A DNA stretch of 15,833 nt from positions 1 to 15,833 of the forward strand of contig ONPH01000014.1 in the NCBI GenBank assembly GCA_900319655.1, read 5' to 3'. Below are positions 1-15,350 of this stretch, one piece after another; position 1 is the stretch's first letter, and each line of letters begins with the position of its first letter. Source of the DNA: an uncultured Eubacteriales bacterium. GTDB lineage: Bacteria; Bacillota; Clostridia; Oscillospirales; Acutalibacteraceae. The translations under genes and the position numbers were made by a program. A model generated the notes under the pieces. The model had not been told where the DNA came from and made no database searches. It saw only the letters and a list, made by a program, of their open reading frames with translations.

Positions 1-236
1 CCTAAATTCGTGAATATTATCGCGAGCTTGTCCAGATTGGTAAGTCCGAAAACTATGTGCGCAAAAATGAACAGCGATATCGCGAGGACAATCATGACAA
101 GAGCAAAGTCTTCCCACATAATTTTGAATTTTTTTATCAGATTAAGCCCGACAGCAACGCACAACGCCGCGCCGAGTACCGTCATTACGCCGTACATTCC
201 GACTGTAAATCCGAAAATCTCAAATGAAGGGAACAT
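1..236 (-). CDS. Lgt-like membrane protein, N-terminal part (runs off the window)
   Basis: An open frame runs on the minus strand from an ATG at 236 to the window edge with no stop, giving about 78 residues. An AGGAGAGG ribosome binding site at 242-250 precedes it. The protein begins MFPSFEIFGFTVGMYGVMTV and has two hydrophobic segments, about residues 8-30 and 41-62, separated by a basic LIKKFKIMWED loop. A short N-terminus, a M-Y-G motif at the start of the first helix, a basic loop and a second helix are the pattern of prolipoprotein diacylglyceryl transferase and its divergent clostridial relatives, which add diacylglycerol to the lipobox cysteine of prolipoproteins. The conserved Lgt catalytic region would lie outside the window, so activity cannot be judged. 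A terminator-like hairpin lies directly upstream of the ribosome binding site. The Lgt assignment is moderate; membrane location is more secure. Confidence 0.55.
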   Translation of the reverse strand, partial: MFPSFEIFGFTVGMYGVMTVLGAALCVAVGLNLIKKFKIMWEDFALVMIVLAISLFIFAHIVFGLTNLDKLAIIFTNL

Positions 237-250
237 AAAAATCCTCTCCT

Positions 251-282
251 AAAACAATACAGCCAGCCATAGGGCTGACTGT
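251..282 (-). terminator. Terminator hairpin after the 305-652 gene
   Basis: On the minus strand, ACAGTCAGCCC pairs with GGCTGGCTGT around a short loop (259-282), followed by ATTGTTTT (251-258). It sits 22 bases past the stop of the small membrane protein gene and ends one base before the ribosome binding site of the Lgt-like gene, so it may act as an intergenic attenuator as well as a terminator. Confidence 0.65.
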
Positions 283-304
283 AGATTGTTTGTTTTAAGT
301 TCTC

Positions 305-652
305 TTATTTAGCTGCTGAAACAGCGCTGTTGAGAGCACTGCTGAGCTGGCTTGCAAGCTTAGGATCCTTAGCAACTTCGCTTGCCATGCAAGCGCCGCA
401 AACTGTGCAGGTGAAGAAACCGATTGCAGCAAGTGCAAGACCGATGATTGAAAGTACCAGACCAACTGTGGGAACAGGTGATGTCTGACCTGCCTCTTTG
501 AAGCTCTTCTTAGAAAGAATTGCAAGAACAAGACCTACGATACCGCAAATAAGTGAGAAAACGTTAAATACGGGAATGTAGAATGTTACGATAGCAATAG
601 CACCGAGAACAATAGCAACAATGCCGAGAACCTTATTACCCTGTTTTTCCAT
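305..652 (-). CDS. Small membrane protein with CxxCxxC cluster (DUF4190-like)
   Basis: This 115-residue protein has ATG at 652 and an AGGAGG site at 661-667. Hydrophobic segments cover about residues 8-26, 29-47 and 62-81, in the pattern of DUF4190-type small integral membrane proteins, where a repeated (V/I)LGI(V/I)..(I/V)LG motif and a GLVLAILSKK stretch are typical. After the third segment lies a cysteine cluster, C82-x2-C85-x2-C88, then a short alanine- and serine-rich tail. The cysteines could bind metal or form disulfides, but nothing else supports either role. The gene has its own consensus promoter and a following hairpin, so it is probably transcribed alone or with leaky read-through into the Lgt-like gene. 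No function can be assigned; similar proteins are usually annotated as hypothetical. Confidence 0.75.
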   Translation of the reverse strand: MEKQGNKVLGIVAIVLGAIAIVTFYIPVFNVFSLICGIVGLVLAILSKKSFKEAGQTSPVPTVGLVLSIIGLALAAIGFFTCTVCGACMASEVAKDPKLASQLSSALNSAVSAAK

Positions 653-679
653 AATGAAAATCCTCCTGATAAATAATAT

Positions 680-699
680 TGTGATTGTATCCCATCACA
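680..699 (-). promoter_or_regulatory. Inverted repeat over the start site of the 305-652 transcript
   Basis: TGTGAT and ATCACA form perfect 6-base arms separated by 8 bases, placed just after the -10 box and covering the expected +1. It could be a repressor operator or a hairpin at the 5' end of the RNA. The spacing is too wide for a CRP-type site. Confidence 0.35.
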
Positions 700-704
700 C
701 GAAT

Positions 705-733
705 ATTATAGAATAAAAAAATTTGCGTGTCAA
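705..733 (-). promoter_or_regulatory. Consensus sigma-A promoter of the 305-652 gene
   Basis: On the minus strand TTGACA (728-733) and TATAAT (705-710) are both perfect matches, with exactly 17 bases between them. Transcription should begin near 698, leaving a leader of about 45 bases. Confidence 0.85.
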
Positions 734-775
734 TAATTATCAAGCTTTTTGTGTAAATCATACATATATTAGTGA

Positions 776-789
776 TTTAGCACGCTAAA
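776..789. repeat. Short perfect palindrome TTTAGC-AC-GCTAAA
   Basis: Six-base arms flank two bases in an AT-rich stretch upstream of the 305-652 promoter. It lies 43 bases upstream of the -35 box and could be an upstream protein-binding site, but there is no second copy nearby to support this. Confidence 0.25.
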
Positions 790-918
790 ATGTACACTAT
801 TTTATCATTCCGCTTAAATAAAAAGTCGAAAAAAGCTGAGACGCTTAAAACTGTTACATAATTTTAACCATATTGTATCAGTTAATTAAATCTGTTTTTC
901 CGCCGATAATTTCATCAG

Positions 919-1016
919 AAGCGGTACGGTCAGCTATGCATGGGTGATGTTATCCAAATCAAGATTTGGACATCACCTCAAAGACCGTACCCTACAACCT
1001 CAATGGATAGGTTGGC
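919..1016. repeat. Long nested hairpin element, MITE-like or structured RNA
   Basis: An outer stem GGTACGGTC (923-931) pairs with GACCGTACC (983-991). Inside it, GGTGATGT (943-950) pairs with ACATCACC (970-977), continuing into CCAAATC (954-960) with GATTTGG (963-969), with only a 3-base bulge. Immediately downstream, CAACCT (995-1000) and AGGTTG (1009-1014) form a third hairpin. There is no coding frame here. The arrangement suggests a non-autonomous palindromic repeat, perhaps one inserted within another, or an unknown structured RNA. The strand of any RNA is not determined. Confidence 0.5.
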
Positions 1017-1059
1017 GACACGTTATATTTATATCGGAAAGCTCGTATTAATTCACACG

Positions 1060-1120
1060 CAGCCCCCTCAGTCAGCTAAAGCTGACAGCTCCCCCATAAC
1101 AAAGTGATGAGGGAGCCTTT
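1060..1120. repeat. Extragenic palindromic repeat of gut-Firmicutes type
   Basis: The core is GTCAGC-TAAA-GCTGAC (1071-1086), flanked by CCCTCA (1065-1070) and TGAGGG (1108-1113), with a second possible stem GCTCCC...GGGAGC inside. Read on the minus strand it starts AAAGGCTCCCTC and contains GGGGGAGCTGTCAGC, which matches from memory a repeat found in many copies between genes of Ruminococcus, Faecalibacterium and relatives. It lies 60 bases after the carB-dapF stop and may double as a transcription barrier for that operon, though no U-tract follows it. Confidence 0.6.
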
Positions 1121-1142
1121 AAAAGTTTTCCTAACAGTATAT

Positions 1143-1171
1143 TAAACTCTAAACTCTCAACTCTTAACTCT
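1143..1171. repeat. Heptamer tandem repeat downstream of carB-dapF
   Basis: Four adjoining 7-base units: TAAACTC twice, then TCAACTC and TTAACTC, followed by TGAGAG. The tract ends 7 bases from the carB-dapF stop codon. It has no coding potential and is too short for a CRISPR or a variable-number locus of note. Confidence 0.6.
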
Positions 1172-1177
1172 GAGAGA

Positions 1178-4100
1178 TTAAACCTCAACTTCGCCCTCAA
1201 ATACCTTCTCGGCGTTACCGGTCATATAGACGGTTTCGTCGGTGTAGTTGATGATGAGGTCGCCGCCGATAAGCTTAACCTTGATGTCGTCGCCCTTCTT
1301 GCAGAAGCCGTTTTCGCAAGCCGCTACGGCAACCGCGCAGGCGCCTGTTCCACAAGCCCAGGTTTCGCCCGAGCCGCGTTCCCAAACTCTCATTTTGAGC
1401 GTTTTGTCGTTGAGCACGGTGACAAACTCGGTGTTAACCCTCTCGGGGAAGAGCTTGTTGTTCTCAAACTCAGGGCCGATTTTTTCAAGGTCGAGGTGGT
1501 CAACGTCACCCTCTACAAATACAACGCAGTGCGGATTACCCATTGAAACGCAGGTGATGTTGTACTCCTTACCGCCGATTGTTACGGCTCTGTTTACAAC
1601 CTTGTCGCCGTCGAGAGCAACGGGGATGTCCTTGGGATTGAGCACAGCCTTGCCCATATCAACTCTGAGGCGTGTAACCTCGCCGTCCTGGGTGTAAGCC
1701 TTGAGCGACTTGATACCGCTGAGGGTTTCGATTGTGATTTCGTCCTTTTCCTTGATGTCAATCATACCGTGGTCGTAGAGGAACTTACCTACGCAGCGGA
1801 TACCGTTGCCGCACATCTTTCCCTCGGAACCGTCGCGGTTGTACATCTTCATCTTTGCGTCGGCAACCTTTGAGGGAGCTACAAGAATAACTCCGTCAGC
1901 GCCGATGCTGAAATGACGGTCTGAAAGTCTAACCGCCAGAGCCTCGGGGTTGTTAATCCACTGCTCAAAGGTCGAGAAGTAGATGTAGTCGTTGCCGATG
2001 CCCTGCATTTTTGTAAATTTAAGCTTCTGCTTTGTCTCTCTCATATTGTTGATGTCAACAAGCTCGGTGCTGTGCTGTGAGAAACGGCTCTTTAAGCAGT
2101 CCGCAAGCGCGTTTGCGGTGTCGAGCGAGGTAAGGCACGGAATGTTGCGCTCAACGGTTTTACGGCGGATTTTAACGGAATCTCTTGAGGGGATTCTGCC
2201 CTTTGCCGAGGTTGAAATTACGTAATTTACCTTGCCCGATTCAATCAGGGTGAGGGTGTTGTTAGCCTCGGACTCGTGAATCTTCTTAACGGCGATTGCG
2301 TCGATACCGTACTTTGTAAGCACCTTGGTTGTGCCCTCTGTGGCGTAAATCTTAAAGCCGAGGTCGGCGTACTTCTTGGCGATTTCACCGATTTCCGCCT
2401 TGTCGGAATCGCGGACGGTAATAAACACGCCGCCGTCCTTCTTCATCTTGTAGCCTGCGGCGATAAGTCCCTTGTAAAGCGCTTCCTCGAGCGAGCCTGC
2501 GATACCGAGAACCTCACCGGTCGACTTCATCTCAGGGCCGAGGTGGTTATCAACGTTGATAAGCTTTTCAAAGCTGAATACCGGAACCTTAACGGCGATG
2601 TACGGGCTCTTGCGGTAAAGACCTGTGCCGTAGCCCATATCGGCAAGCTTTTCACCGAACATTGCGCGCGTTGCCAGGTCAACCATCGGCACGCCCGTTA
2701 CCTTGCTGATGTACGGAATTGTACGCGATGAACGCGGATTTACCTCGATTACGTACAGCTCGTCCTCATAAATGAGGTACTGGATATTTACAAGACCTTT
2801 TGTCTTAAGCTCAATAGCAAGGTTGCGCGAGCTTTCAACAATGATGTCTGTCATTTTATCGGAAATATTCCAAGCCGGATAAACGGCGATTGAGTCGCCC
2901 GAGTGAACGCCTGCGCGCTCAACGTGCTCCATAATTCCGGGGATGAGGATGTCCTCGCCGTCGCAGATTGCGTCAACCTCAATCTCGGTACCCTGCAAAT
3001 ATTTGTCAATAAGAATCGGGTTTTCGATATTCTGCGCGAGGATAATCGCCATATACTCCTTAACGTCGGCGTCGTTGAAGGCGATAATCATATTCTGACC
3101 GCCGAGCACGTAGGACGGACGGAGAAGAACCGGATAGCCGATTTTGTCCGCAACGTCGAGCGCTTCCTCGGTTGTCATAACAGTAACGCCTCTGGGACGC
3201 TTGATGTGGTACTTTTCAAGCAGCTCGTCAAAGCGCTCTCTGTCCTCTGCCATGTCGATAGCGTCATAGGATGTGCCGAGGATGTTAACGCCGTTGTCGC
3301 TCATAAACTTTGTCAGCTTAATCGCGGTCTGTCCGCCGAACGCTACAACTACGCCGTAGGGATTTTCGGTCTTGATAATTCCCATTACGTCCTCGTTGGT
3401 GAGGGGCTCAAAGTAAAGCCTGTCGGCGGTGTCAAAGTCGGTTGAAACCGTCTCGGGGTTGTTGTTGACGATAACAACATCGTAGCCTGCCTTTTTCAGC
3501 GCCCATACGCAGTGAACGGAAGCGTAGTCAAACTCGATACCCTGGCCGATTCTGATAGGCCCTGAGCCGAATACGATAACGGTCTTTTTGCCGCTCTTGC
3601 GCTCCTCGATAAACTCTGCCGCCTCGTTCTCCTTGTCAAAGGTCGAGTAGAAGTATGGCGTTTCAGCCTCGAACTCAGCCGCGCAGGTGTCAACCATTTT
3701 ATATACCGGAGTGAGCGGATTTTTGACAGTCTGTCCGCTGAACTCCTCAATTGTCTTGTCGAGGTAGCCGATTTTCTTTGCCTTGGCGTAGAGCTCGTCG
3801 GTGAGCTCCTTGGTCTTTAGCTCCTCGCCCATGTCGATGATGTTCTGGAGCTTGTATAAGAACCACTCGTCAATCATGGTGATTTCGTGGATTTTATCAA
3901 CGCTTACGCCGCGCTTAAGCGCCTCGTAAACGCAGAAGATACGTCTGTCGTCGCAAACGCTGAGCTGGTCAATAAGCGAAGCGTTTGAAAGCTTTGCGTA
4001 CTCCTTGTCGTCGAGAGTGTTGTGCGAGATTTCTGCGCCTCTGATAGCCTTCATAATCGCCTGCTCAAAGGTCGGCGCGATAGCCATAACCTCGCCGGTA

Positions 4101-5233
4101 GCCTTCATCTGTGTTCCGAGTGTGCGCTTAGCGTAAACGAACTTGTCGAACGGCCACTTGGGGAACTTAACAACAACGTAGTCGATTGCAGGCTCAAAGC
4201 AGGCGTAGGTTGTGCCTGTTACGGCGTTCTTAATCTCGTTGAGGGTGTAGCCGATTGCGATTTTCGCCGCAACCTTGGCGATGGGATAGCCTGTCGCCTT
4301 TGAAGCGAGCGCCGAAGAACGCGATACACGCGGGTTAACCTCGATTACGGCGTACTCGAAGGTCTCGGGGTCGAGCGCGAACTGACAGTTACAGCCGCCC
4401 TCTACCTTAAGCTTTGAGATAATGCTCAGAGCCGCCGAGCGGAGCATTTGATACTCCTTGTCGGAGAGCGTAACGGTAGGCGCGATTACGATTGAGTCGC
4501 CGGTATGTACGCCGACGGGGTCGAAGTTTTCCATCGAGCAGATTGTGATTACGTTGCCCTCGCTGTCGCGCATAACCTCGAACTCGATTTCCTTCCAGCC
4601 CGAGATACACTTTTCTACAAGCACCTGGGTGATAGGTGAAAGCTCAAGTCCGTTTGAGGTGATTTCGCGGAGCTCCTCCTCGTTGTTAACGATACCGCCG
4701 CCTGTTCCACCGAGGGTGAACGCCGGGCGGATGATAACGGGGTAGCCGATTTCGTCGGCAAACTTAACAGCGGCTTCAACGTCGTTTACGACCGTCGAGG
4801 GGATAACCGGCTGGTTGATTTCGAGCATAGCGTCCTTAAAGAGCTGTCTGTCCTCTGCCTGGTCGATAGTCTCGGGCTTTGCGCCGAGAAGCTTAACGCC
4901 GTATTTGTCGAGGAAGCCCTCCTTTGCAAGCTGCATTGACAGGGTGAGTCCGGTCTGTCCGCCGAGGGTTGACAGCAGGCTGTCGGGACGCTCCTTGCGG
5001 ATAATTCTCTTGATAGTTGTAAGCGTGAGCGGCTCAATATAAACCTTGTCCGCCATCGCGTTGTCTGTCATAATTGTCGCGGGGTTGGAGTTGACGAGGA
5101 TTACCTCTAAGCCCTCCTCCTTAAGCGCGCGGCACGCCTGAGTTCCGGCGTAGTCAAATTCGGCAGCCTGACCGATAACAATCGGGCCCGAGCCGATTAC
5201 CATAACTCTTTTTATGTCTTTTTTAAGTGGCAT
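1178..5233 (-). CDS. carB-dapF: Carbamoyl-phosphate synthase large subunit fused to diaminopimelate epimerase
   Basis: A single 1351-residue frame joins two complete enzymes. Residues 1-1063 are CarB: first carboxyphosphate half with GSGPIVIGQAAEFDYAGTQA (14-33) and ATP-grasp EVNPR (298-302), a helical middle (about 403-548), second half with GSGPIRIGQGIEFDYAS (556-572) and EVNPRSSR (830-837), and an MGS allosteric domain (about 934-1052). CarB makes carbamoyl phosphate from bicarbonate, ATP and CarA-derived ammonia for arginine and pyrimidines. Residues 1064-1351 are DapF, which converts LL- to meso-diaminopimelate for lysine and peptidoglycan; both active-site cysteines are present, C1141 in MCGNGIRC and C1294 in ACGTGAC, as is MGNPHCV. 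CarB ends at its usual ELVDIN and DapF follows with almost no linker. The internal ATG at 2044 has no ribosome binding site upstream. The start at 5233 has AAGGTAAGGA before it; carA ends 43 bases upstream. Confidence 0.95.
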   Translation of the reverse strand: MPLKKDIKRVMVIGSGPIVIGQAAEFDYAGTQACRALKEEGLEVILVNSNPATIMTDNAMADKVYIEPLTLTTIKRIIRKERPDSLLSTLGGQTGLTLSMQLAKEGFLDKYGVKLLGAKPETIDQAEDRQLFKDAMLEINQPVIPSTVVNDVEAAVKFADEIGYPVIIRPAFTLGGTGGGIVNNEEELREITSNGLELSPITQVLVEKCISGWKEIEFEVMRDSEGNVITICSMENFDPVGVHTGDSIVIAPTVTLSDKEYQMLRSAALSIISKLKVEGGCNCQFALDPETFEYAVIEVNPRVSRSSALASKATGYPIAKVAAKIAIGYTLNEIKNAVTGTTYACFEPAIDYVVVKFPKWPFDKFVYAKRTLGTQMKATGEVMAIAPTFEQAIMKAIRGAEISHNTLDDKEYAKLSNASLIDQLSVCDDRRIFCVYEALKRGVSVDKIHEITMIDEWFLYKLQNIIDMGEELKTKELTDELYAKAKKIGYLDKTIEEFSGQTVKNPLTPVYKMVDTCAAEFEAETPYFYSTFDKENEAAEFIEERKSGKKTVIVFGSGPIRIGQGIEFDYASVHCVWALKKAGYDVVIVNNNPETVSTDFDTADRLYFEPLTNEDVMGIIKTENPYGVVVAFGGQTAIKLTKFMSDNGVNILGTSYDAIDMAEDRERFDELLEKYHIKRPRGVTVMTTEEALDVADKIGYPVLLRPSYVLGGQNMIIAFNDADVKEYMAIILAQNIENPILIDKYLQGTEIEVDAICDGEDILIPGIMEHVERAGVHSGDSIAVYPAWNISDKMTDIIVESSRNLAIELKTKGLVNIQYLIYEDELYVIEVNPRSSRTIPYISKVTGVPMVDLATRAMFGEKLADMGYGTGLYRKSPYIAVKVPVFSFEKLINVDNHLGPEMKSTGEVLGIAGSLEEALYKGLIAAGYKMKKDGGVFITVRDSDKAEIGEIAKKYADLGFKIYATEGTTKVLTKYGIDAIAVKKIHESEANNTLTLIESGKVNYVISTSAKGRIPSRDSVKIRRKTVERNIPCLTSLDTANALADCLKSRFSQHSTELVDINNMRETKQKLKFTKMQGIGNDYIYFSTFEQWINNPEALAVRLSDRHFSIGADGVILVAPSKVADAKMKMYNRDGSEGKMCGNGIRCVGKFLYDHGMIDIKEKDEITIETLSGIKSLKAYTQDGEVTRLRVDMGKAVLNPKDIPVALDGDKVVNRAVTIGGKEYNITCVSMGNPHCVVFVEGDVDHLDLEKIGPEFENNKLFPERVNTEFVTVLNDKTLKMRVWERGSGETWACGTGACAVAVAACENGFCKKGDDIKVKLIGGDLIINYTDETVYMTGNAEKVFEGEVEV

Positions 5234-5276
5234 ATTATCAATCCTTACCTTTAAGATTTCGGTTATTTTCGGTTAA

Positions 5277-6359
5277 TCAGTTTTTGTTTTCCTTCATCAT
5301 ATCAATGAAGCGGTCGAACAAAAACGCCGTGTCGAGCGGTCCGCCGCATGCCTCGGGATGGAACTGCACCGAGAAAGCAGGCATATCCAGGTAGTCAACG
5401 CCCTCGCAGGTGTTGTCGTTGCCGTTTGTAAAGCTTAGGGCGCCGTTTTCGGGAAGGCTGTCGGAAACTACCGCGTAGCCGTGGTTCTGCGAGGTGATGT
5501 AAACTCTGCCGCTCTTGAGCTCCTTAACGGGCTGGTTAGCGCCGCGGTGGCCGTATTTGAGCTTTTCGGTCTCGCCGCCTTGTGAAAGCGCAAGGAGCTG
5601 ATGACCGAGGCAAATGCCGAACATCGGAATTTTGCTGTCGCAGAGCTTTTTAATCTCTGCGATAATCGCGGTGTTTTCGGCAGGATCTCCCGGACCGTTT
5701 GAAAGCATTACGCCGTCGGGGTTCATCGCCAAAATTTCCTCGGCTGAGGTATGAGCCGGAACAACGGTCAAATCGCAGCCGCGCTTTAGCAGCTCGCGGT
5801 CGATGTTGTGCTTTGCGCCGAAGTCCATAAGCACTACCTTAAGCTCGGGATTTTCCGCGTCATAGTGCACGGGCTTTTCAAGGGTTGTGCTCTCGACAGC
5901 CTTAACCACCTTGTAGTTTTTAAGCTCCTCGAGCTCCTCGGCTGTAACGCCCTGCGTGTATTTAATTTTGCAGTTCATAACGCCGTACTCGCGCACAATA
6001 CGTGTGAGCGCTCTGGTGTCGATTCCGCAAACTCCGGGGATACCGGATTTTTTTAAAAAGGTGTCAAGATCGCCCTCACTGCGGAAGTTGGACGGAGCCT
6101 GACACCATTCTCTTACGATATAACCTTTCAAAGCGGGAGAATCGCTCTCAAAATCAGAGGGAATTACCCCGTAGTTGCCGATAAGCGGAAATGTCTGAAT
6201 AATCACCTGACCGTAGTAGCTGGGGTCGGTGATTGTTTCAAGATAGCCTGTCATAGCTGTTGTAAAAACAAGCTCTCCTACCGTTTCCTTTTCAGCGCCA
6301 AATGACTCGCCCTCAAAAACAGTTCCGTTTTCAAGAACCAAGTACGCAGCTCGACTCAT
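5277..6359 (-). CDS. carA: Carbamoyl-phosphate synthase small (glutaminase) subunit
   Basis: At 360 residues this is the usual length for CarA. The N-terminal half (about 1-150) is the CPSase small-chain domain, with TTAMTGYLETITDPSY and GIPGVCGIDTRALTR. The C-terminal half is a class I glutamine amidotransferase with the full triad: Cys250 in FGICLGHQ, His334 and Glu336 in QFHPEA, plus the SNGPGDP loop (220-226) and TSQNHGYAV. It hydrolyses glutamine and channels ammonia to CarB. An AAAGGATG site precedes the ATG. The fused carB-dapF gene starts 43 bases downstream on the same strand with no terminator between, so the two subunits are cotranscribed. The ANTAR gene ends 52 bases upstream, also without a GC-rich hairpin, so it probably heads the same operon; I see no convincing promoter in that gap. 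Confidence 0.97.
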   Translation of the reverse strand: MSRAAYLVLENGTVFEGESFGAEKETVGELVFTTAMTGYLETITDPSYYGQVIIQTFPLIGNYGVIPSDFESDSPALKGYIVREWCQAPSNFRSEGDLDTFLKKSGIPGVCGIDTRALTRIVREYGVMNCKIKYTQGVTAEELEELKNYKVVKAVESTTLEKPVHYDAENPELKVVLMDFGAKHNIDRELLKRGCDLTVVPAHTSAEEILAMNPDGVMLSNGPGDPAENTAIIAEIKKLCDSKIPMFGICLGHQLLALSQGGETEKLKYGHRGANQPVKELKSGRVYITSQNHGYAVVSDSLPENGALSFTNGNDNTCEGVDYLDMPAFSVQFHPEACGGPLDTAFLFDRFIDMMKENKN

Positions 6360-6411
6360 ATTATCATCCTTTCGTTTTTATATAATGGAGAATTGAAATT
6401 GGATTAAAAAT

Positions 6412-6987
6412 TTAATTTTCGTACGTTGATATTACCTGCTTTGCGACAGCGAGCTTGCTTGTGCGCATATCCATAGCCTGTTTTTCGAGGTACTTATGCG
6501 CCTGGCTCTCGCTCATATTAAGGCAGGTGACGAGCAGCAGCTTTGCGCGGTCGATTATTTTGATATCCTCAACCATGCTTTTTAACCGCTCGTTTTCGCG
6601 TTCTACGCTGAGAATTCGCGTGCGGAAGCAGTCCGTAAACTGCAAATAATGGTGAAACAAATGCTTGTTTATCGGCTTTGCGATTACGAGCACGCCGTGC
6701 TTTGTGAGCAAATCGTTTACCTCGTCGGCACTTTTTTGCGGAACGATTATCACGACGCTCGAACGCGACGACGCGGCAAGCTGACTTGACAGCTCAATTC
6801 CGTTTTCGTCGGGAAGCGGAGCGTTGATACAGATTAAATCAAACTCCTTTTCGCACTGCGAGGCCTCTTCCCTCGCGCCGTAAGCCGAAAACGACGTGGT
6901 GATTTTTACATAGCCCTCGTTCCTGAGAAGCTGGGCAAGCGGCTGTGCGCTTTGGTTTGAACCGGTTATCAGTAACGCACTTTTCAC
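6412..6987 (-). CDS. ANTAR-domain regulator with degenerate receiver (glnA-associated, NitR-like)
   Basis: This protein of about 191 residues has an N-terminal receiver-like domain (about 1-115), a helical linker (VERENERLKSMVEDIK) and a C-terminal ANTAR RNA-binding domain (about 130-190) with DRAKLLLVTCLNMSESQAHKYL and an alanine/methionine-rich third helix. ANTAR proteins prevent transcription termination by binding paired stem-loops in leader RNA. The receiver lacks the acidic pair after strand 1 (ALLITGSNQ) and has Asn instead of the phosphoacceptor Asp in ICINAPLPDENG, though the KP motif (IAKPIN) remains; it probably does not use phosphorylation. The same type of protein adjoins glnA in several clostridia. 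I prefer the GTG at 6987, which puts the family-typical KSALLITGS at the N-terminus and has GGTGGTGA before it; an in-frame ATG at 7005 adds six residues but has a poor binding site. It lies between glnA and carA. Confidence 0.85.
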   Translation of the reverse strand: MKSALLITGSNQSAQPLAQLLRNEGYVKITTSFSAYGAREEASQCEKEFDLICINAPLPDENGIELSSQLAASSRSSVVIIVPQKSADEVNDLLTKHGVLVIAKPINKHLFHHYLQFTDCFRTRILSVERENERLKSMVEDIKIIDRAKLLLVTCLNMSESQAHKYLEKQAMDMRTSKLAVAKQVISTYEN

Positions 6988-7036
6988 TCTCTCACCACCG
7001 CACATCTGTCTTCAACATATTATTTTACAAGATTTG

Positions 7037-7067
7037 AAGGTTTTATAATTTACTTTATGGAATTAAA
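7037..7067 (-). promoter_or_regulatory. Possible promoter of the ANTAR-carA-carB-dapF operon
   Basis: On the minus strand TTGCTT is followed after 17-18 bases by TTATAA/TATAAA in the AT-rich gap between the glnA terminator and the ANTAR gene. The match is moderate. It is the best candidate because the terminator after glnA makes an independent start likely. Confidence 0.35.
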
Positions 7068-7132
7068 GCAATATTTTTAGAGCTTTACTAAATCCGTCCT
7101 TTTGAGGTGAGGTTTTTGTTTAAATTATCCCT

Positions 7133-7163
7133 CGCAAAAAGAGCCGCCATTAGGCAGCTCTTT
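7133..7163 (-). terminator. Terminator of the glutamine synthetase gene
   Basis: On the minus strand AAAGAGCTGCC-TAAT-GGCGGCTCTTT forms an 11-pair stem with one T.G wobble and runs into TTTTTGCG. It begins 13 bases after the stop codon. Confidence 0.88.
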
Positions 7164-7176
7164 AAAATTATACATC

Positions 7177-9270
7177 TTATACGCCGAACAAGAGGTCGTA
7201 GTATGAGGGATAGGGCCAGTAATCCGCGGCGGTCTCGGTCTCCATGCTGTCGCCCACGGCTCTGAGCTCCTGCATTTTTGAGAATACGCTCTCGCGGAAA
7301 TAGGTGGCGTAAGCCAAGCCGTCGTCCTTGTACTCGCCTGCGCCCATAACAGCTTCCTCAAGCTCTGCGGTCTTTTTAACAAAGCAAACGAGCTTGTTGG
7401 AAAGGCTTGTGATAAGCTCCTCCTCAACGCTTGTTGGGATAGCTTCGGACAGCGCTTTTTTGGCAAGGGCAGTCTCGGTGAGCTCGCGTACAAATTCGCT
7501 AACCGCAGGTGTGATGTTCTTTCTCGCCATATCAATCATGGTAAGAGCTTCAATGTTAATCTGCTTTGAGTAGCTTTCGAGCTCAATTTCATATCTTGCC
7601 CTGAACTCGGCCTCGGTGCAGATGTTGTTCTTGACAAAGAGGTCGATGTTCTTTTTGTCCATAAAGTGAGCGAACGCCTCGGGGAGCGATTTGAGGTTGA
7701 GAAGTCCTCTTCTCTCTGCCTCGCCTACCCATTCGTCGGCATAGTTGTCGCCGTTGAAGATAATTCTTCTGTGCTCGGTAAATACCCTCTTTACGAGCTT
7801 CCTTACGCCTGCCTCAACATCAGCGGCTGTGCAGAGCTCCTTGTAAAACTGCGAGAGCTCCTCGGCAACCATTGTGTTGAGCATATAGTTGGGACAGCCG
7901 ATATTGAGCGCCGAGCCGAGAGCACGGAACTCAAATTTATTGCCTGTGAACGCAAACGGTGAGGTGCGGTTGCGGTCTGAGGTATCCTTTTTGAAGTCAG
8001 CGAGAACGTCAACGCCGGTCTGCACCCTCTCCTTGCCCTGACTTACGTACTCTCCGCCCTCAATCATAGCGTCAACCATTGCGCCGAGGTCGTCACCGAG
8101 GTACATTGAAATAATCGCAGGCGGTGCTTCGTTAGCGCCGAGACGGTGGTCGTTGCCTGCGGAAGCTACGGTAATTCTGAGCAAATCCTGATACTCATCG
8201 ACAGCCTTAACTACAGCCGCGAGGAAAAGCTGGAACTGAATATTATCCTCGGGATGCTTGCCGGGAGAAAGCAGGTTTTCGCCTGTATTTGTCGAGATTG
8301 ACCAGTTGTTGTGCTTGCCCGAGCCGTTAACTCCGGCAAAGGGCTTTTCGTGGAGAAGGCAGACAAGGCCGTGCTTTTCGGCGGTCTTTTTCATAATCTC
8401 CATTGTCAGCTCGTTGTGGTCGTTCGCGATATTTGAGGTGGTGTAAATAGGAGCGAGCTCGTGCTGTGAGGGGGCAACCTCGTTGTGCTTTGTCTTTGCG
8501 AGCACGCCGAGGCTCCAGAGCTCCTCGTCGAGGTCCTTCATAAACGCCGCTACCCTTGTTTTGATAGCGCCGAAGTAGTGGTCGTCAAGCTCCTGTCCCT
8601 TGGGGGCTTTCGCGCCGAAAAGGGTTCTGCCTGTGAGCTTTAAGTCCTCGCGCTGATTGTACAGCTCGCGGTCGATAAGAAAATACTCCTGCTCGGGACC
8701 TACGGTAGTGATTACCCTTGTAACGTCGGTCTTGCCGAGAAGGTGAAGAAGCTTAACCGCCTCTGTGCTGAGCCTTTCCATTGAGCGGAGAAGCGGAGTT
8801 TTCTTGTCGAGAACCTCGCCTGTGTATGAGCAGAACGCTGTGGGAATGTACAGCGAGCCGTCCTTTACAAAAGCAGGAGACGTCGGGTCCCAGGTTGTGT
8901 AGCCCCTTGCCTCAAAGGTCGCGCGGATTCCGCCGCTGGGGAACGACGAAGCGTCGGGCTCGCCCTTGATGAGCTCCTTGCCCGAGAATTCCATAATTAC
9001 CTGACCGTCGCCATTGGGGGTGATAAAGCTGTCGTGCTTTTCGGCTGTAACGCCGGTCATCGGCTGGAACCAGTGGGTGTAGTGGGTACAGCCGAGCTCG
9101 ATAGCCCAGTCCTTCATTGCGGCGGCAACAACGTTAGCCACGCTCAAATCGAGCGGCTCGCCGTCCTGAATTGTCTTTTTAAGCGCCTTGTAAGTTGATT
9201 TGGGAAGTCTTTCCTGCATTTTCTGGTCGTTAAAAACCTTGCAGCCGAACATCTCGGGAACCTTAGACAT
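7177..9270 (-). CDS. glnA: Glutamine synthetase type III
   Basis: The protein of 697 residues has the length of type III glutamine synthetase (about 700), well above type I (about 470). It makes glutamine from glutamate, ammonia and ATP in the cytoplasm. The type III N-terminus is present ([17 protein letters not shown], 8-24), as are the metal-binding GPEQEYF (191-197), the [14 protein letters not shown] loop (261-274), the ATP-binding [11 protein letters not shown] (314-324) and the glutamate-site [12 protein letters not shown] (372-383). I place the start at the ATG at 9270, which has AGGAGAG eight bases upstream. The frame stays open up to 9438, but that extension covers the promoter and leader hairpin and is not translated. 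Glutamine is the CarA substrate, and the carA operon follows downstream with an ANTAR regulator between. Confidence 0.96.
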
Positions 9271-9301
9271 AACAACTCTCCTGTCTGCTAATTTAAAATA
9301 G

Positions 9302-9331
9302 AGGCACTGTAAGCCTATGCTTACAGCGCCT
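9302..9331 (-). promoter_or_regulatory. Leader hairpin of glnA mRNA
   Basis: In the minus-strand RNA, AGGCGCUGUAAGC pairs with GCUUACAGUGCCU around the tetraloop AUAG: 13 continuous pairs including one G.U. On the plus strand the same position is an A.C mismatch, so the structure is made for the glnA transcript. It starts about 8 bases after the expected 5' end and is followed by CTATTTTAAATT, a weak U-tract. It may stabilise the 5' end, act as a weak terminator, or be the target of a regulator. It is not a canonical ANTAR target, which needs two hairpins with six-base loops. Confidence 0.6.
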
Positions 9332-9345
9332 TTGCTGTTATTGTC

Positions 9346-9374
9346 AGTATATTCTCTTTTTATGATTTTGTCAA
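9346..9374 (-). promoter_or_regulatory. Sigma-A promoter of glnA
   Basis: On the minus strand TTGACA (9369-9374, perfect) and TATACT (9346-9351) are 17 bases apart. The expected start is near 9339, giving a leader of about 69 bases that carries the hairpin at 9302-9331. Confidence 0.85.
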
Positions 9375-9443
9375 GATTTTTTTGAACGGTCTTTAGGTGT
9401 TTTGCCGCGTGATTTTTAGGTAATTTGCGGAAAAACATTTTTA

Positions 9444-9472
9444 TTGATTTATTCTCCGCGTAATGATAGAAT
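9444..9472 (+). promoter_or_regulatory. Promoter of the rlmD-like gene
   Basis: TTGATT (9444-9449) and TAGAAT (9467-9472) are 17 bases apart on the plus strand. This divergent promoter leaves a leader of about 22 bases and overlaps the in-frame ATG at 9463, which therefore cannot be the translation start. Confidence 0.6.
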
Positions 9473-9501
9473 ATATTTGTACAATCTCAGGAGGAAAGAT
9501 T

Positions 9502-10665
9502 ATGAGCAAGGCGGTTATCACAAACAAAAATATCTGCCCCGTTTACAAAAAGTGCGGCGGATGTCAGCTTCAAAATATGAGCTACCCCGAGCAGCTTAAA
9601 TATAAGCAGAACAAGGCTGAGCGTTACCTGAAGCGCTTCGGCAAAGTCCTGCCGATTATCGGTATGGACAACCCCTACCACTACCGCAACAAGGTTCAGG
9701 CGGCGTTTTACACAAGCCGCAACGGAAAGATAATCTCGGGCGTTTACCAGTCGGGCAGTCACAACGTCGTCGGAATCGACAGCTGCCAGATTGAGGACGA
9801 GCTTGCCGACAAAATTATCGTCGGCGTGCGAAAGCTGATGCCGTCCTTCAAAATGACGACCTACAACGAGGACACAAGGCGCGGATTTTTGCGGCATATT
9901 CTCGTAAAGCGCGGCTTTGCGACCAATCAGGTTATGCTCGTGCTCGTCACCGGCAAGCCGATGTTCCCCTCGAAGAACAACTTTGTTAAGGCTATCCGCG
10001 AGAAATTCCCCGAGATTACCACAATCGTGCAGAACATCAATCCCTATCAGACAAACCTTGTGCTCGGAGACCGTGAAAACGTGCTCTACGGCAAGGGATA
10101 TATCGAGGATATTCTCTGCGGCTGCCGTTTCAGGATTTCGCCGAAAAGCTTTTACCAAATCAACCCTGTCCAGACCGAGGTTTTGTACTCCACCGCCATT
10201 AAATACGCGGATTTGAAGGGCGACGAAACCGTGCTCGATACCTACTGCGGAATCGGCACAATCGGAATTATCGCCGCCAAAAACGGCGCAGGCAAGGTTA
10301 TCGGCGTTGAATTAAACGGCGACGCCGTCCGCGACGCGATTGTCAACGCCAAGGCGAACGGACTTAAAAATATCAGGTTCTATAAGGGCGACGCCGGCGA
10401 TTTTATGCGCGCCGCCGCACAGGAAGACGAAAAGCCCGACGTTGTGTTTATGGATCCGCCGAGGGCAGGCAGCAGCGAGGTTTTCCTCGATTCGCTGATA
10501 AAGATGTCTCCGAAAACCGTGGTTTACGTCTCCTGCAACCCCGAGACATTGGCGCGTGATTTGCGTTATCTCGAGCAAAAGAGCAGGTACAGAGCGAGAA
10601 AAATCCAGCCGGTGGATATGTTCCCCCACACAAATCACATTGAGTGTGTTGCAATTATCAGATAA
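9502..10665 (+). CDS. rlmD: 23S rRNA (uracil-C5)-methyltransferase, RlmD/RlmCD type, without TRAM domain
   Basis: The 387-residue protein starts at ATG 9502, seven bases after AGGAGG (9489-9494). It transfers a methyl group from S-adenosylmethionine to C5 of a uracil in rRNA. The iron-sulfur cysteines are C12, C18, C21 (CPVYKKCGGC) and C95 (IDSC). The methyltransferase domain has QINPVQTEVLY (219-229), the SAM loop DTYCGIGTIG (246-255), FMDPPRAG (316-323), the nucleophile C345 in VSCNPETLARDL and the base E381 in the terminal HIECVAI. Most family members (about 450 residues) begin with an RNA-binding TRAM domain; here the protein begins directly at the cluster. Which uracil (747, 1939 or both) is modified cannot be told from sequence. 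Its stop codon lies inside the operator of the next operon. Confidence 0.9.
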   Translation: MSKAVITNKNICPVYKKCGGCQLQNMSYPEQLKYKQNKAERYLKRFGKVLPIIGMDNPYHYRNKVQAAFYTSRNGKIISGVYQSGSHNVVGIDSCQIEDELADKIIVGVRKLMPSFKMTTYNEDTRRGFLRHILVKRGFATNQVMLVLVTGKPMFPSKNNFVKAIREKFPEITTIVQNINPYQTNLVLGDRENVLYGKGYIEDILCGCRFRISPKSFYQINPVQTEVLYSTAIKYADLKGDETVLDTYCGIGTIGIIAAKNGAGKVIGVELNGDAVRDAIVNAKANGLKNIRFYKGDAGDFMRAAAQEDEKPDVVFMDPPRAGSSEVFLDSLIKMSPKTVVYVSCNPETLARDLRYLEQKSRYRARKIQPVDMFPHTNHIECVAIIR

Positions 10666-10677
10666 TTGTGGTACAAT
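10649..10677 (+). promoter_or_regulatory. Promoter of the toxin-antitoxin operon
   Basis: TTGCAA (10649-10654) and TACAAT (10672-10677) are 17 bases apart. The -35 box and most of the spacer lie within the last codons of the rlmD-like gene. The expected start is near 10684, leaving a very short leader ahead of AAAGGAGA at 10686-10693. Confidence 0.7.
10652..10668. promoter_or_regulatory. Palindromic operator in the toxin-antitoxin promoter
   Basis: CAATTAT-CAG-ATAATTG is a perfect 7-base inverted repeat lying between the -35 and -10 boxes. Phd/YefM antitoxins, alone or with their toxin, repress their own operon by binding such palindromes, so this is the likely autoregulatory site. Direct evidence is position and symmetry only. 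Confidence 0.6.
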
Positions 10678-10700
10678 AATAACACAAAGGAGATGTTATT

Positions 10701-10961
10701 ATGCCGCAGATTATACCAATCAGAGATTTGAAAAATACAAGCGAGATCTCTCAGCTCTGCCACAGCACCGACAACCCGGTTTTTATCACAAAAAACGGCT
10801 ACGGCGATATGGTAATTATGAGCATTGAGGCGTATGAGAAAGCGATGTTTTTGCAGAATGTTTCGGAAAAGCTCGCCCTTGCCGAAAAACAGATTGAAGC
10901 AGGAGAAGTTACCGACGCCGCCGAATCGCTCAAAGAGCTGAGGAATAAATATGGCTTATAA
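10701..10961 (+). CDS. Antitoxin, Phd/YefM family
   Basis: The 86-residue protein begins MPQIIPIRDLKNTSEISQLC, the typical opening of Phd/YefM antitoxins, where the N-terminal half forms a dimeric DNA-binding fold. ITKNGYGDMVIMSIEAYE (about 29-46) matches the family's (I/V)TKNG...VVMS.E.YE signature. The C-terminal half (about 50-86) is a charged helical region (EKLALAEKQIEAGEV) expected to wrap around and neutralise the toxin. AAAGGAGA precedes the ATG. The gene overlaps the toxin by 11 bases, the usual coupling for antitoxin-first modules, and it has its own promoter and operator. Confidence 0.9.
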   Translation: MPQIIPIRDLKNTSEISQLCHSTDNPVFITKNGYGDMVIMSIEAYEKAMFLQNVSEKLALAEKQIEAGEVTDAAESLKELRNKYGL

Positions 10962-11262
10962 TGTTTCTATAACCGATGGCGCTTCCGCTGAGCTCGGTGA
11001 AATTCTCGGTTATATCATCAACCGTCTGCAAAACCCTAGTGCCGCCAAAGATTTTTTGGATAAGGTCGGGGAATGCTACGGCAGATTGGCGGGAAATCCG
11101 AAAATTTATCAGCTTTGCGATTATGAAAATTTTAAAGAAAAAGGCTACCGCAAGGCTGTAGTAAAAAACTATGTATTAATATATAGAATTGACGAAGCCG
11201 CAAAAGCGGTTTATATTCTTCATATTTTTTACGGCAGGCAGAATTATTACTCTTATATTTAA
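10951..11262 (+). CDS. Toxin, RelE/ParE family
   Basis: At 103 residues this has the size and plan of a RelE/ParE toxin: an N-terminal beta strand (YNVSITDGA), two helices containing AELGEILGYIINRLQNPSAAKDFLDKV, and a C-terminal sheet with YRKAVVKNYVLIYRIDE and the closing VYILHIFYGRQNYYSYI. RelE members cleave mRNA on the ribosome and ParE members poison gyrase; the sequence does not decide between them, although the -YRIDE...IFYGRQ(N/D)Y ending is common in clostridial RelE-type toxins. Translation is coupled to the antitoxin by the 11-base overlap. The amidohydrolase start follows 13 bases after the stop. Confidence 0.88.
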   Translation: MAYNVSITDGASAELGEILGYIINRLQNPSAAKDFLDKVGECYGRLAGNPKIYQLCDYENFKEKGYRKAVVKNYVLIYRIDEAAKAVYILHIFYGRQNYYSYI

Positions 11263-11275
11263 CACGGAGAAAATT

Positions 11276-12088
11276 ATGATTATAGATTCTCACGCGCATA
11301 TCGGGAAAATTTTGAAATTCAATATGAAAACCAATGAGCTGCTTTACTCGATGGAAAAGTACGGCGTTGATTTTTCGCTGTTCAGCAACATCGAGGGCGC
11401 GGAGTTCAGCCACAGCGGAATTAAGGTTCCGTTCTTTTTGACGAAGAAGCAGAACAAGCTGCTGAAAAATTCGATTGCCGAGGCGCGCAAGGCCCCCGAC
11501 AAGCTCGGCGTTTTGGTTTGGTGCAAGCTCCACAGCGAAAGTCCCGACAATGAATTCAGGCAGCTTATAAAGGACAACCGCGATATTATTTACGGCTTAA
11601 AGTTTCATCCCTTCCACTCTCTGACAAGCCCCGACAGCGACAACGCGGAGCCGTTTTACGAGCTTGCCGAGGAGTTTAATCTTCCGGTTGTGTCGCACAC
11701 CGGCGGATGTGAGCTTGCGATGTCCGAGCACCTTTACCGCGCCGCCGAAAAACATCCCGATATAAACTTTGTGATGGTTCATATGGACTTGGGCACGGAC
11801 AACCGCGACGCGCTTGAATACCTCGGAATGTTGCCGAACCTCTACGGCGACACAACGTGGGTACCCATCAAGACCACGGTTGAGGCGATACGCCGCTACG
11901 GCAGTAAAAAAATGCTCTTCGGCACAGACAACCCGATTGACGGCAAGGACACTTTGCTTACGAACAAGACGGGCGACCGCTCGATTTATCAGGAGTATTT
12001 TAACGAGCTCAGGGATATGATAACGCCCGATGAATACGACGATTTGATGTACCGCAACGCCCAAAAATTATTCGGAATAAAAATGTAA
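11276..12088 (+). CDS. Metal-dependent amidohydrolase (TIM-barrel, amidohydrolase-2 type)
   Basis: This 270-residue protein starts at ATG 11276 after GGAGA (11266-11270). All metal-site positions of the superfamily are visible in order: D-x-H-x-H near the start (H6, H8), K109/H111 in GLKFHPF, H141 in VVSHTGG, H169 in MVHMDLG and D218 in LFGTDNPI. Such enzymes hydrolyse or decarboxylate small substrates with one or two metal ions; the substrate is not evident. The size and the FGTD(N/S)P motif fit amidohydrolase-2 rather than TatD nucleases. The frame is open upstream into the toxin gene, but those residues have no ribosome binding site. It lies 13 bases after the toxin stop with no terminator between, so it is probably cotranscribed with the toxin-antitoxin pair. 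A strong terminator follows the stop. Confidence 0.85.
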   Translation: MIIDSHAHIGKILKFNMKTNELLYSMEKYGVDFSLFSNIEGAEFSHSGIKVPFFLTKKQNKLLKNSIAEARKAPDKLGVLVWCKLHSESPDNEFRQLIKDNRDIIYGLKFHPFHSLTSPDSDNAEPFYELAEEFNLPVVSHTGGCELAMSEHLYRAAEKHPDINFVMVHMDLGTDNRDALEYLGMLPNLYGDTTWVPIKTTVEAIRRYGSKKMLFGTDNPIDGKDTLLTNKTGDRSIYQEYFNELRDMITPDEYDDLMYRNAQKLFGIKM

Positions 12089-12097
12089 AAAGCATAA

Positions 12098-12132
12098 AAG
12101 CTCTCCCAAATCAAAGCAGTTTGGGAGAGCTT
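12098..12132. terminator. Two-way terminator between convergent genes
   Basis: AAGCTCTCCCAAA and TTTGGGAGAGCTT form a perfect 13-pair stem around a 9-base loop. The plus strand continues TATTGTTTA and the minus strand TTTATGCTTTTT, so it can end both the amidohydrolase transcript and the CotH-dockerin transcript, whose stops lie about 10 and 6 bases away. Confidence 0.92.
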
Positions 12133-12137
12133 ATTGT

Positions 12138-13631
12138 TTATATAACCCTTTTGAATTTGCTAAGCATATCAGACGAGTATTTTTGGATTTCCGTCGCGTC
12201 GAGCGCGTCAACCGTGTTGTCGTTGTTAACGTCAGCGATTATCTTCTGCTCGCCTGTGAGCTCGGCATTTTCCACGATATATTTTTGAACCAGCGTCGCG
12301 TCAAAAACATCAATCGACTTGTCGCCGTTGACGTCTCCGATTTTATAATCCTCACCGAAGGGATTAAAATGAACCGTCATCCAGTCGTTGCGGACGTCAA
12401 GCCAGTCTTTAAGGTAGTCGTAATTTGCGGCGTAGGTCGGCAGGGGCTTTTTGTAGTTGTTGAGCCACCACTTGGAGATATTCCAGCCGGCTTCCTTGTA
12501 GTTGCGCTCAAAAACATCCTTGTACTGAGCGTAGGTGGTGTCGAGGAAGCCGCCGTCGGCGGAGATGTTTTCGATAAACTCATAGTGGTCGCGGTAAACC
12601 TCGGACACCATCTCGTTGAACCAACCGTACTTTGCGAGGTAAATGTAGAGGTTTTTGTCCGCAAAAATTCCGTTATAGTCCGCGGCGTTCTTCGCACGGG
12701 CTGAAAAATCGGGATAGGCGTTGCCTGCGCATAGGTCATAGTCCCACGCAGGACCTGCGTAGAGCTTGCCGTCCTTGTAGTAAAAATAAACCGAGGTTCG
12801 CTCAAAATCAAAGGTCTTTAAATACTCGTTGAGCAGGTAATACTTTGCGAACGACGGCAAGTCGATTTTCTGCTCAATCTGCGCCTTATCGCCGGTTTTA
12901 ATCGCGGCAACAATGTCGTCCATAATCTCCTGAACATAAGCCTGCTGTTCCTCGGTCGGCTCTTCCGGATCTTTGAAGGCGAACCTGAAACGCTTATCGG
13001 CAACAAGATAAGTCTTGTCGTCCTCCTCGGTCACAGCCTCGAACTCGAGCAAAAAGTCCTTTTTTCCGCCGTTCGACTCGATGTCGATATTAACCCTGTC
13101 CTTGCCCTCCTGAACAGGCTCGTACAGGGTGTAGCAGCCGCGGAAGTTGCCGTCAACCCATAGCTCGCAAATCTTCTGATTTGAGGTGTATTCAAGTCCG
13201 AGCTCGCGCGCGAGCTCAAAGGCGGTGTAGTTGCGCAAAAGCGTGGGGTCAAAGGCGTTTGCAAGCAAAAACCACTTTTTGCCGCTGCCCATTGAGAGCA
13301 CGTTCTTTTTCTTGGCAAACTTAAATGTAAATGCTTTTTTCGTCACCCAGCTCAGGGCGGTTGTGTTGCCCCTCACCTTAAACTGAACGGCGTCGCTGAG
13401 CTCAGTACCGTCGGTGTCCTTAATCGTAATCTGAGCGTTAACGTAGTCGTCCTCTTTTTGAAGCGTTGTGCCGTTGCCGTTTTCGGTGACAACCCTGATT
13501 TGCGGAACGTCAAGGTGCTCGCCGTCATAAACCTGAGCGGCAGATACCGACGGTGCAAAGCAAAGCGCGCTTACCGCGAGCGTTAGGCAGAGCATTACCG
13601 CCGAGGCTCTTTTTAATATTTTTATTTTCAA
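12138..13631 (-). CDS. Secreted CotH-kinase family protein with C-terminal type I dockerin
   Basis: A 497-residue exported protein. The signal peptide (about 1-32) has KIKILKRAS, a hydrophobic core and a VSA-A cleavage site. The middle (about 40-420) is a CotH domain: VQFKVRGNTTA near the N-terminus, FDFERTSVYFYYKDGKLYAG and GPAWDYDL, the residues that bind ATP and metal in CotH protein kinases. Residues 431-497 are a type I dockerin with two calcium loops, DVNGDKSID and DVNNDNTVD, each followed by a helix with DATxxQKY or DATEIQKY. Dockerins plug enzymes into cohesin scaffoldins of cellulosomes. The start codon is TTG at 13631, seven bases after AGGAGG; no better ATG exists. No other dockerin, cohesin or glycoside hydrolase gene is in the window. 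Whether this CotH domain phosphorylates anything is unknown. Confidence 0.93.
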   Translation of the reverse strand: MKIKILKRASAVMLCLTLAVSALCFAPSVSAAQVYDGEHLDVPQIRVVTENGNGTTLQKEDDYVNAQITIKDTDGTELSDAVQFKVRGNTTALSWVTKKAFTFKFAKKKNVLSMGSGKKWFLLANAFDPTLLRNYTAFELARELGLEYTSNQKICELWVDGNFRGCYTLYEPVQEGKDRVNIDIESNGGKKDFLLEFEAVTEEDDKTYLVADKRFRFAFKDPEEPTEEQQAYVQEIMDDIVAAIKTGDKAQIEQKIDLPSFAKYYLLNEYLKTFDFERTSVYFYYKDGKLYAGPAWDYDLCAGNAYPDFSARAKNAADYNGIFADKNLYIYLAKYGWFNEMVSEVYRDHYEFIENISADGGFLDTTYAQYKDVFERNYKEAGWNISKWWLNNYKKPLPTYAANYDYLKDWLDVRNDWMTVHFNPFGEDYKIGDVNGDKSIDVFDATLVQKYIVENAELTGEQKIIADVNNDNTVDALDATEIQKYSSDMLSKFKRVI

Positions 13632-13685
13632 AACGTTTCCTCCTATGCCGATTTACAGCAATATTATAAAACTTTTCGCCCTTAT

Positions 13686-13712
13686 ATTATAAGTGATAAA
13701 GAAAAAAGTCAA
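13686..13712 (-). promoter_or_regulatory. Probable promoter of the CotH-dockerin gene
   Basis: On the minus strand TTGACT (13707-13712) precedes a perfect TATAAT (13686-13691) with a short 15-base spacer. The leader would be about 45 bases. Confidence 0.5.
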
Positions 13713-13722
13713 TAAGAAAATG

Positions 13723-14157: not shown

Positions 14158-14187
14158 AACAATTCTCCTGAATAAATAATACAAATT

Positions 14188-14216
14188 ATTATAGCTTAAT
14201 ATCAAAGCGCAGTCAA
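14188..14216 (-). promoter_or_regulatory. Sigma-A promoter of the deoxyribosyltransferase gene
   Basis: On the minus strand TTGACT (14211-14216) and a perfect TATAAT (14188-14193) are exactly 17 bases apart, giving a leader of about 25 bases. Confidence 0.8.
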
Positions 14217-14228
14217 CTTTATACTGCA

Positions 14229-14260
14229 AAACGCCCCTGACAGCGCAAGCTGTCAAGGGC
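14229..14260 (-). terminator. Terminator of the DUF348/G5 lipoprotein gene
   Basis: On the minus strand GCCCTTGACAGC-TTGC-GCTGTCAGGGGC forms a 12-pair stem with one T.G wobble, followed by GTTTTGC. On the plus strand the wobble becomes a C.A mismatch, which supports action on the minus-strand transcript ending at 14305. Confidence 0.8.
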
Positions 14261-14304
14261 ATTTTTCATAAAACACACATCAATGTTTGAGGACTGTATT
14301 AAGC

Positions 14305-15345: not shown

Positions 15346-15350
15346 ACTCA

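Follow-up and report, generated by a model that had tools for sequence, protein, structure and literature searches.

A carbamoyl-phosphate synthase fused to diaminopimelate epimerase in Clostridia, and the loss of catalytic cysteines from its epimerase domain

What does an epimerase of diaminopimelate (DAP) do at the end of a carbamoyl-phosphate synthase? The question is raised by a gene, carB::dapF, in a 15,833-nucleotide stretch of DNA from an uncultured Eubacteriales bacterium (family Acutalibacteraceae; assembly GCA_900319655.1, contig ONPH01000014.1, positions 1 to 15,833), the whole of which is referred to here as the window. The gene occupies positions 1178..5233 on the minus strand and is a single ATG-started frame of 1351 amino acids, in which the large subunit of the synthase (CarB) is followed by the epimerase (DapF). 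More interesting than the fusion itself is that the epimerase domain of the fused family appears to outlive its own catalysis.

A complete CarB and a complete DapF in one frame

The window protein passed both equivalog models, first as a complete CarB and then as a complete DapF (Pfam, NCBIfam). TIGR01369 scored 1476 bits (curated cut-off 1027) over residues 3-1046, covering both CarB halves, and jointly with NF003671 (CarB, 1510 bits) spanned residues 1-1050. TIGR00652 (DapF) scored 288.6 bits (curated cut-off 114.65) over residues 1072-1349, matching positions 2-268 of the 270 in the profile, and both catalytic cysteines were found in the motifs CGNGIRC and CGTGAC. The preliminary description of this DNA, made from the letters alone, had reported an intact CarB and an intact DapF with both catalytic cysteines in one 1351-residue frame, and was right on each count. 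Furthermore, the small-subunit gene carA (5277..6359, minus strand; NF009475/TIGR01368) adjoins carB::dapF, as expected for the large subunit of carbamoyl-phosphate synthase. The window protein is confirmed as a real in-frame CarB-DapF fusion and is predicted to be, probably, a working bifunctional enzyme.

Among known structures, Escherichia coli CarB (1bxr, 1a9x) matched the window protein at 1038 bits over residues 1-1049 and, unlike it, is without an epimerase domain; no coverage past residue 1049 was found among the five distinct PDB sequences matched at E 1e-100. Stand-alone DapF (2otn, 9mro, 1bwz) has its whole fold and catalytic motifs in common with the window domain (263 bits to 2otn). 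The mitochondrial CPS1 structure 5dot was also among the PDB matches. In eukaryotic CAD and mitochondrial CPS1, carbamoyl-phosphate synthase is joined in one chain to other parts, namely a small-subunit-like part, ATCase and DHOase. These partners share the reaction or the pathway of the synthase, whereas the DapF of CarB-DapF does not.

Unfused cousins of this CarB type stop at VDINTIR-like motifs, equivalent to ELVDINNMR in the window, and fused proteins run on from that point. Since DapF homology starts at residue 1072-1073 of the window protein, these endings place the CarB/DapF border at about residue 1065; the split at 1063/1064 proposed in the preliminary description was near this border but not exact. 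Based upon profiles and the endpoint of unfused relatives, the CarB part comprises residues 1-1065 (2039..5233, minus strand), with its natural tail ELVDINNMR at the end (residues 1057-1065). It includes the MGS-like (allosteric) domain, residues 948-1035 (2129..2392, minus strand), recognised by Pfam and by alignment to E. coli CarB 1bxr. The DapF domain, assigned by TIGR00652 and its motifs, comprises residues 1073-1351 (1181..2017, minus strand). The conserved tail and linker (2018..2071, minus strand) were delimited by comparison of 106 fused loci, i.e. that of the window and 105 others from the genome samples described below. From ELVDI to the first DapF residue there are 11 residues in 103 of the 106 loci and 18 in the other 3. 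In the 103, junction columns are nearly uniform, with E at -16 in 102, R at -8 in 101, and F at 0 and K at +2 in all.

An assembly or sequencing artefact, for which nothing in the window speaks, is refuted, and the chance left to it is negligible. The identical junction is open in frame in the 105 other loci and in 80 named contigs, isolates included (two sets that partly overlap), which excludes a frameshift or stop codon at the junction, a concern raised in the preliminary description. Among the 80 contigs, 67 hold frames longer than 1100 amino acids, 11 are cut by contig ends, and 2 are interrupted further upstream (L112, L125). The point on the side of an artefact is a split carB frame in one related metagenome-assembled genome (L259 in G293), with carB as two overlapping frames of 741 and 644 amino acids, the second fused to dapF; this is a frameshift or an assembly slip.

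Separate production of DapF, via internal initiation or linker cleavage, was also considered. A start codon with a Shine-Dalgarno-like match of at least 4 bases was present near the junction in 22 of the 106 fused loci, by a test of limited sensitivity that finds a match in just 22 of 40 stand-alone dapF genes, and the tail before the linker was predicted at low confidence by AlphaFold. Against these points, no such match was found in 84 of the 106 loci, and the length and sequence of the linker are conserved. In the window itself, upstream inspection of the internal ATG (2042..2044, minus strand), nine codons before the first DapF residue, revealed no Shine-Dalgarno-like match, in agreement with the earlier statement that it lacks a ribosome binding site. 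A separately made DapF is considered very improbable.

Distribution and ancestry of the fusion

Neither the wide spread of the fusion nor the loss of cysteines, seen in roughly half the fused loci that were read, was foreseen in the preliminary description, which had suggested looking for the architecture in related genomes. There, the fusion proved to be spread over the class and beyond, in many Clostridia from gut and environmental sources, and not to be the oddity of one genome. The genome samples were non-random, with the genus of the window over-represented, and one long frame without CarB (L219 in G115) was excluded before counting. DapF was found inside a CarB frame in 35 of 59 near genomes, that of the window included; in 33 of these the frame is whole, and in 2 it runs into a contig end. 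Of 36 genomes of the genus, 23 carry the fusion, 11 have dapF as a gene of its own and 2 gave no DapF match; each of the 23 holds one DapF only, the fused copy. In the window's own genome (1.6 Mb, 81% complete) the fused copy is likewise the sole DapF match, in answer to the check for a separate dapF proposed in the preliminary description. At least 58 of 147 genomes in the order sample are fused, and with the near sample added the fusion reaches 19 of 25 family codes in the order. In the class sample, DapF lies in frames longer than 1300 amino acids in 19 of 137 genomes, 17 of these outside the order, in addition to one fusion cut by a contig end (L260) and the locus with carB in two frames (L259). 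The phylum sample contains the fusion in 6 of 149 genomes, five of them outside the class.

A scan of named records gave 253 confirmed contigs, the best 80 of which derive mostly from uncultured Ruminococcus or Clostridia and include Ruminococcus bromii ATCC 27255, YE282 and 5AMG; both cysteines are present in all 80. The window groups with the R. bromii group. A protein search admitting long proteins only scored 7993 candidates, of which 7215 matched at E 0.001; of the 13 source-named rows among the best 120 listed, 11 were named as synthase only and 2 as epimerase only. In a plasmid search, all 25 records listed match the CarB part only, and 2 of 356 cover at least 80% of the query, both outside those 25. 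No description of a CarB-DapF fusion was found in the literature searched, which comprised titles and abstract openings, with preprints and most subscription papers outside its coverage. In one congeneric genome (L035, G010:C75), carA, a pyrimidine-type carB and dapF are adjacent separate genes, and the carB stop almost touches the dapF start. This carB differs in type from the fused carB, representing a second juxtaposition of carB and dapF.

In order to establish the ancestry of the fusion, trees of both halves were examined. In the CarB tree (FastTree), in which the outgroup supplied did not form one side of a branch, all 86 fused rows fell within one branch (100*) of 88 rows, together with two unfused rows (L082, L100) that are read as losses of the DapF domain. 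The fused/unfused changes needed were 4 on the first CarB tree and 3 on a later one, to which class and phylum rows were added, with the genus thinned and without L066 (the same gene as L100) and the long branches L226 and L099. In the tree of the DapF part, one branch (97*) parts 88 fused from 39 stand-alone rows, and in a mixture-model tree one branch (96*) splits 72 fused from 37 stand-alone rows. Both DapF trees were built without L066, L226, L219 and most of the genus, the mixture-model tree also without near-copies and the long-branch solo rows L261 and L073. Both half-trees point to a fusion that arose once.

Two separate fusions are unsupported by the CarB tree and by both DapF trees. 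L082 (G037), L081 (G039) and L100 (G054) are CarBs without the fusion that branch within the fused clade or at its base; inspection by eye of the carB-direction frames downstream of carB revealed no dapF remnant in these three.

The epimerase domain with and without its cysteines

The catalytic cysteines were scored as Cys73 and Cys217, in the numbering of Haemophilus influenzae. Both are present (CC) in 55 of the 106 fused loci. The others read, in the order 73 and 217, AC (28), GC (11), FC (5), SC (3), CS (2), GS (1) and TS (1), so that 51 of 106 are cysteine-less in the sense of lacking one or both. Stand-alone DapF differs from the fused domain in this respect, being CC in 40 of 40 loci (39 distinct genes), as well as in being unfused and on the other side of the tree branch. 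All 23 fused genus loci are CC, compared with 32 of the 83 outside the genus. The best 120 matches of a cysteine-less query were 115 AC and 5 GC, and those of the window were 120 CC, both sets being nearest relatives and not random samples. On the best CarB tree the state of Cys73 changes 8 times, with 4 of the changes forced by starred branches, and on the mixture-model DapF tree 6 times. In DapF of Corynebacterium glutamicum, exchange of either cysteine for Ala leaves almost no activity, and the two lobes close when DAP is bound (PMC5296763). Judged by these residues, cysteine-less fused members belong to the DapF family by descent and should not work as epimerases.

The ratio of nonsynonymous to synonymous substitution rates (dN/dS) of the DapF part was 0.010-0.301 in 8 of 10 cysteine-less pairs, dS being saturated and giving no ratio in the other two (L204/L207, L193/L059), and 0.016-0.108 in six CC pairs. 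For CarB it was 0.018-0.108 across all ten cysteine-less pairs. Decay of a useless domain is unsupported, with dN/dS well below 1. Furthermore, eight DAP-contact residues, at positions given in PMC5296763, are kept on average at 96% in 43 cysteine-less rows, these counts being drawn from the first 82 fused loci, of which 43 are cysteine-less. N64, N190, E208 and T219 are kept in 43/43, N157 and R209 in 42/43, and N75 in 39/43. Such retention of DAP-contact residues is consistent with the proposed DAP-sensing domain. Because a cysteine has been lost in about half of the fused loci and yet the domain is conserved, epimerase output cannot be its sole purpose.

Cys217 is itself kept in 40 of the 43 cysteine-less rows, although epimerisation needs both cysteines. 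This could suggest that one-cysteine domains catalyse a different, one-base reaction with DAP or some other amino acid as substrate, and relatives with the proline-racemase fold in which one Cys is replaced are dehydratases. The residues found in place of Cys73, however, are Ala, Gly, Phe, Ser or Thr, with no common new catalytic residue, and a different chemistry appears improbable.

With moderate confidence, and on the strength of sequence comparison, we propose instead a single old fusion with two states, in which the DapF domain would have a non-catalytic role in carbamoyl-phosphate synthase, perhaps in addition to epimerase activity in the first state. One event would have joined dapF to the end of carB in an ancestor within the Clostridia. 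In the first state, represented by the window, R. bromii and other lineages, the cysteines are kept, often near dapL (encoding LL-diaminopimelate aminotransferase, DapL), and the protein would serve as a glutamine-dependent carbamoyl-phosphate synthase and LL-DAP epimerase; its domain may combine epimerisation with the non-catalytic job. In the second state, one catalytic cysteine (rarely both) has been lost, with the fold, most of the pocket and the linker staying under purifying selection. Most likely, the domain binds DAP or a related amino acid, closes like DapF, and regulates or stabilises carbamoyl-phosphate synthase; DAP sensing is the role that we infer for it.

Genome context differs between the two states. 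In the order sample, nearly all genomes with the second state have another DapF match or lack DapL. Among the 58 fused genomes, DapL accompanies the domain as sole DapF match in 11 that keep the cysteines and in 1 that has lost them (G062); the remaining genomes comprise 6 with the cysteines kept and 40 with them lost (Fisher p 5.8e-7 before phylogeny). This correlation between cysteines and need is suggestive only. Within the flanks examined, and among loci with a flank of 900 bases or more, a downstream dapL accompanies 24 of 51 that are CC and 0 of 47 that are cysteine-less. Where 1500 bases or more were available upstream of the frame, 26 of 45 cysteine-less loci have argF on the upstream side of carA (four ArgF were checked), compared with 0 of 51 CC loci. 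Of the 106 fused loci, 15 have pyrG, every one of them CC; among the 80 named contigs it is present in 33. The gene order in R. bromii ATCC 27255 is ANTAR-like regulator, carA, carB-dapF, pyrG, dapL, the regulator and carA being recognised by likeness to those of the window; this order lends indirect support to the speculative link between pyrimidine and cell-wall synthesis in the preliminary description.

The MGS domains also differ. E. coli CarB residues K954, T974, T977, K993, N1015 and T1017 presumably have a role in binding of uridine monophosphate, and the window keeps the equivalents of K954, T974, T977 and K993 (positions assigned by alignment to 1bxr). In the 55 CC proteins K954 is kept in 52 and K993 in 55, with Ser at the N1015 and T1017 positions in all. 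In the 26 argF-linked loci K954 is kept in 3 and K993 in 7, and N1015 is replaced by Tyr and T1017 by Gly in 23 each.

The context of the CC loci would suit co-expression convenience, i.e. a chance fusion of neighbouring genes that left the window protein plainly bifunctional, with no cross-talk between its halves: dapL and pyrG lie near many of these loci, and in the order sample the cysteines are kept in genomes that have DapL and no DapF besides the domain. Such a fusion is unlikely to be the whole explanation, leaving unexplained the survival of the domain under purifying selection after cysteine loss in several lineages.

Several observations weigh against the proposed non-catalytic role. 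The correlation between cysteines and need retains only 3 phylogenetically independent pairs, none contrary, and is not significant. In the class and phylum samples the contrast, read there from other DapF matches, is weaker, with such a match in 7 of 16 CC and 6 of 8 cysteine-less genomes. The argF linkage is mostly that of one large clade, close to one event, and 19 of the 45 cysteine-less loci have no argF in the flank. Selection on cysteine-less DapF is strong yet somewhat laxer than on CarB, with some relaxation likely, the DapF ratio exceeding the CarB ratio in 6 of 8 cysteine-less pairs and 3 of 6 CC pairs; these ratios are rough, several dS values being >1, and four of the ten cysteine-less pairs come from one small clade. 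N11 is the weakest pocket residue, kept in 35/43 rows and Asp in 8/43. L222, L228 and L265 are CC yet carry other pocket changes, so CC is no proof of activity. Two or three members of the fused clade dropped the DapF domain, according to the CarB tree. Finally, in an AlphaFold model of window residues 930-1351, with a mean predicted local distance difference test (pLDDT) of 88.3 and a predicted template modelling score of 0.72, residues 1051-1062 (the MGS end and most of the ELVDIN tail) have pLDDT <50. Rigid coupling of the MGS and DapF domains is unsupported by this model, and no fixed arrangement can be claimed.

Columns outside the pocket that are invariant in stand-alone DapF are kept at 91% in the 43 cysteine-less rows, almost like the pocket at 96%. 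Together with low dN/dS across the whole domain, this is what would be expected of a structural passenger, kept for CarB folding, solubility or oligomerisation, with the pocket conserved only incidentally, through the fold; DapF itself is dimeric (PMC5296763). A scaffold alone would not obviously need the six contact residues kept in 42 or 43 of the 43 rows, and a few lineages do without the domain, so that a passenger is possible but doubtful.

Surroundings of the window gene and meaning of the fusion

Upstream of carA, the window encodes a response regulator with an ANTAR (RNA-binding antiterminator) domain (6412..7005, minus strand; Pfam) and, further upstream, a type III glutamine synthetase (GlnA3; 7177..9438, minus strand; Pfam). 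The ANTAR regulator is upstream in 19 of 21 genus loci having at least 1500 bases of flank. Its position between the glutamine synthetase and carA makes nitrogen-responsive antitermination of the car operon possible. Two small open reading frames at 10701-11262 resemble, by eye, a Phd-type antitoxin and a RelE/ParE-type toxin, and another at 12138-13631 resembles a secreted CotH-like protein with a C-terminal dockerin.

The window's own genome encodes DapL on another contig (TIGR03542, 501 bits, used in place of TIGR03540, which yielded below-cut-off matches only). It also encodes meso-diaminopimelate dehydrogenase (TIGR01921, 448 bits), and with this enzyme beside DapL the DapF domain need not be the sole route to meso-DAP.

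More broadly, and tentatively, the fused proteins may constitute a CarB family with an epimerase fold as allosteric sensor, in which catalysis was lost several times and the DAP pocket kept. In the argF-linked clade, where the presumed UMP-site residues of the MGS domain have changed as well, the supply of carbamoyl phosphate for arginine would then come under the control of a lysine or cell-wall intermediate, with sensor and enzyme still one in the R. bromii group. In any case, one polypeptide unites two core pathways in much of the Clostridia, the gut species R. bromii among them. Where such proteins are named by one half only, genome annotations and metabolic models may seem to lack dapF. 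Furthermore, with one catalytic cysteine lost repeatedly from a conserved domain, regulation of carbamoyl-phosphate synthase by a pseudo-enzyme becomes a question that soluble proteins can address directly.

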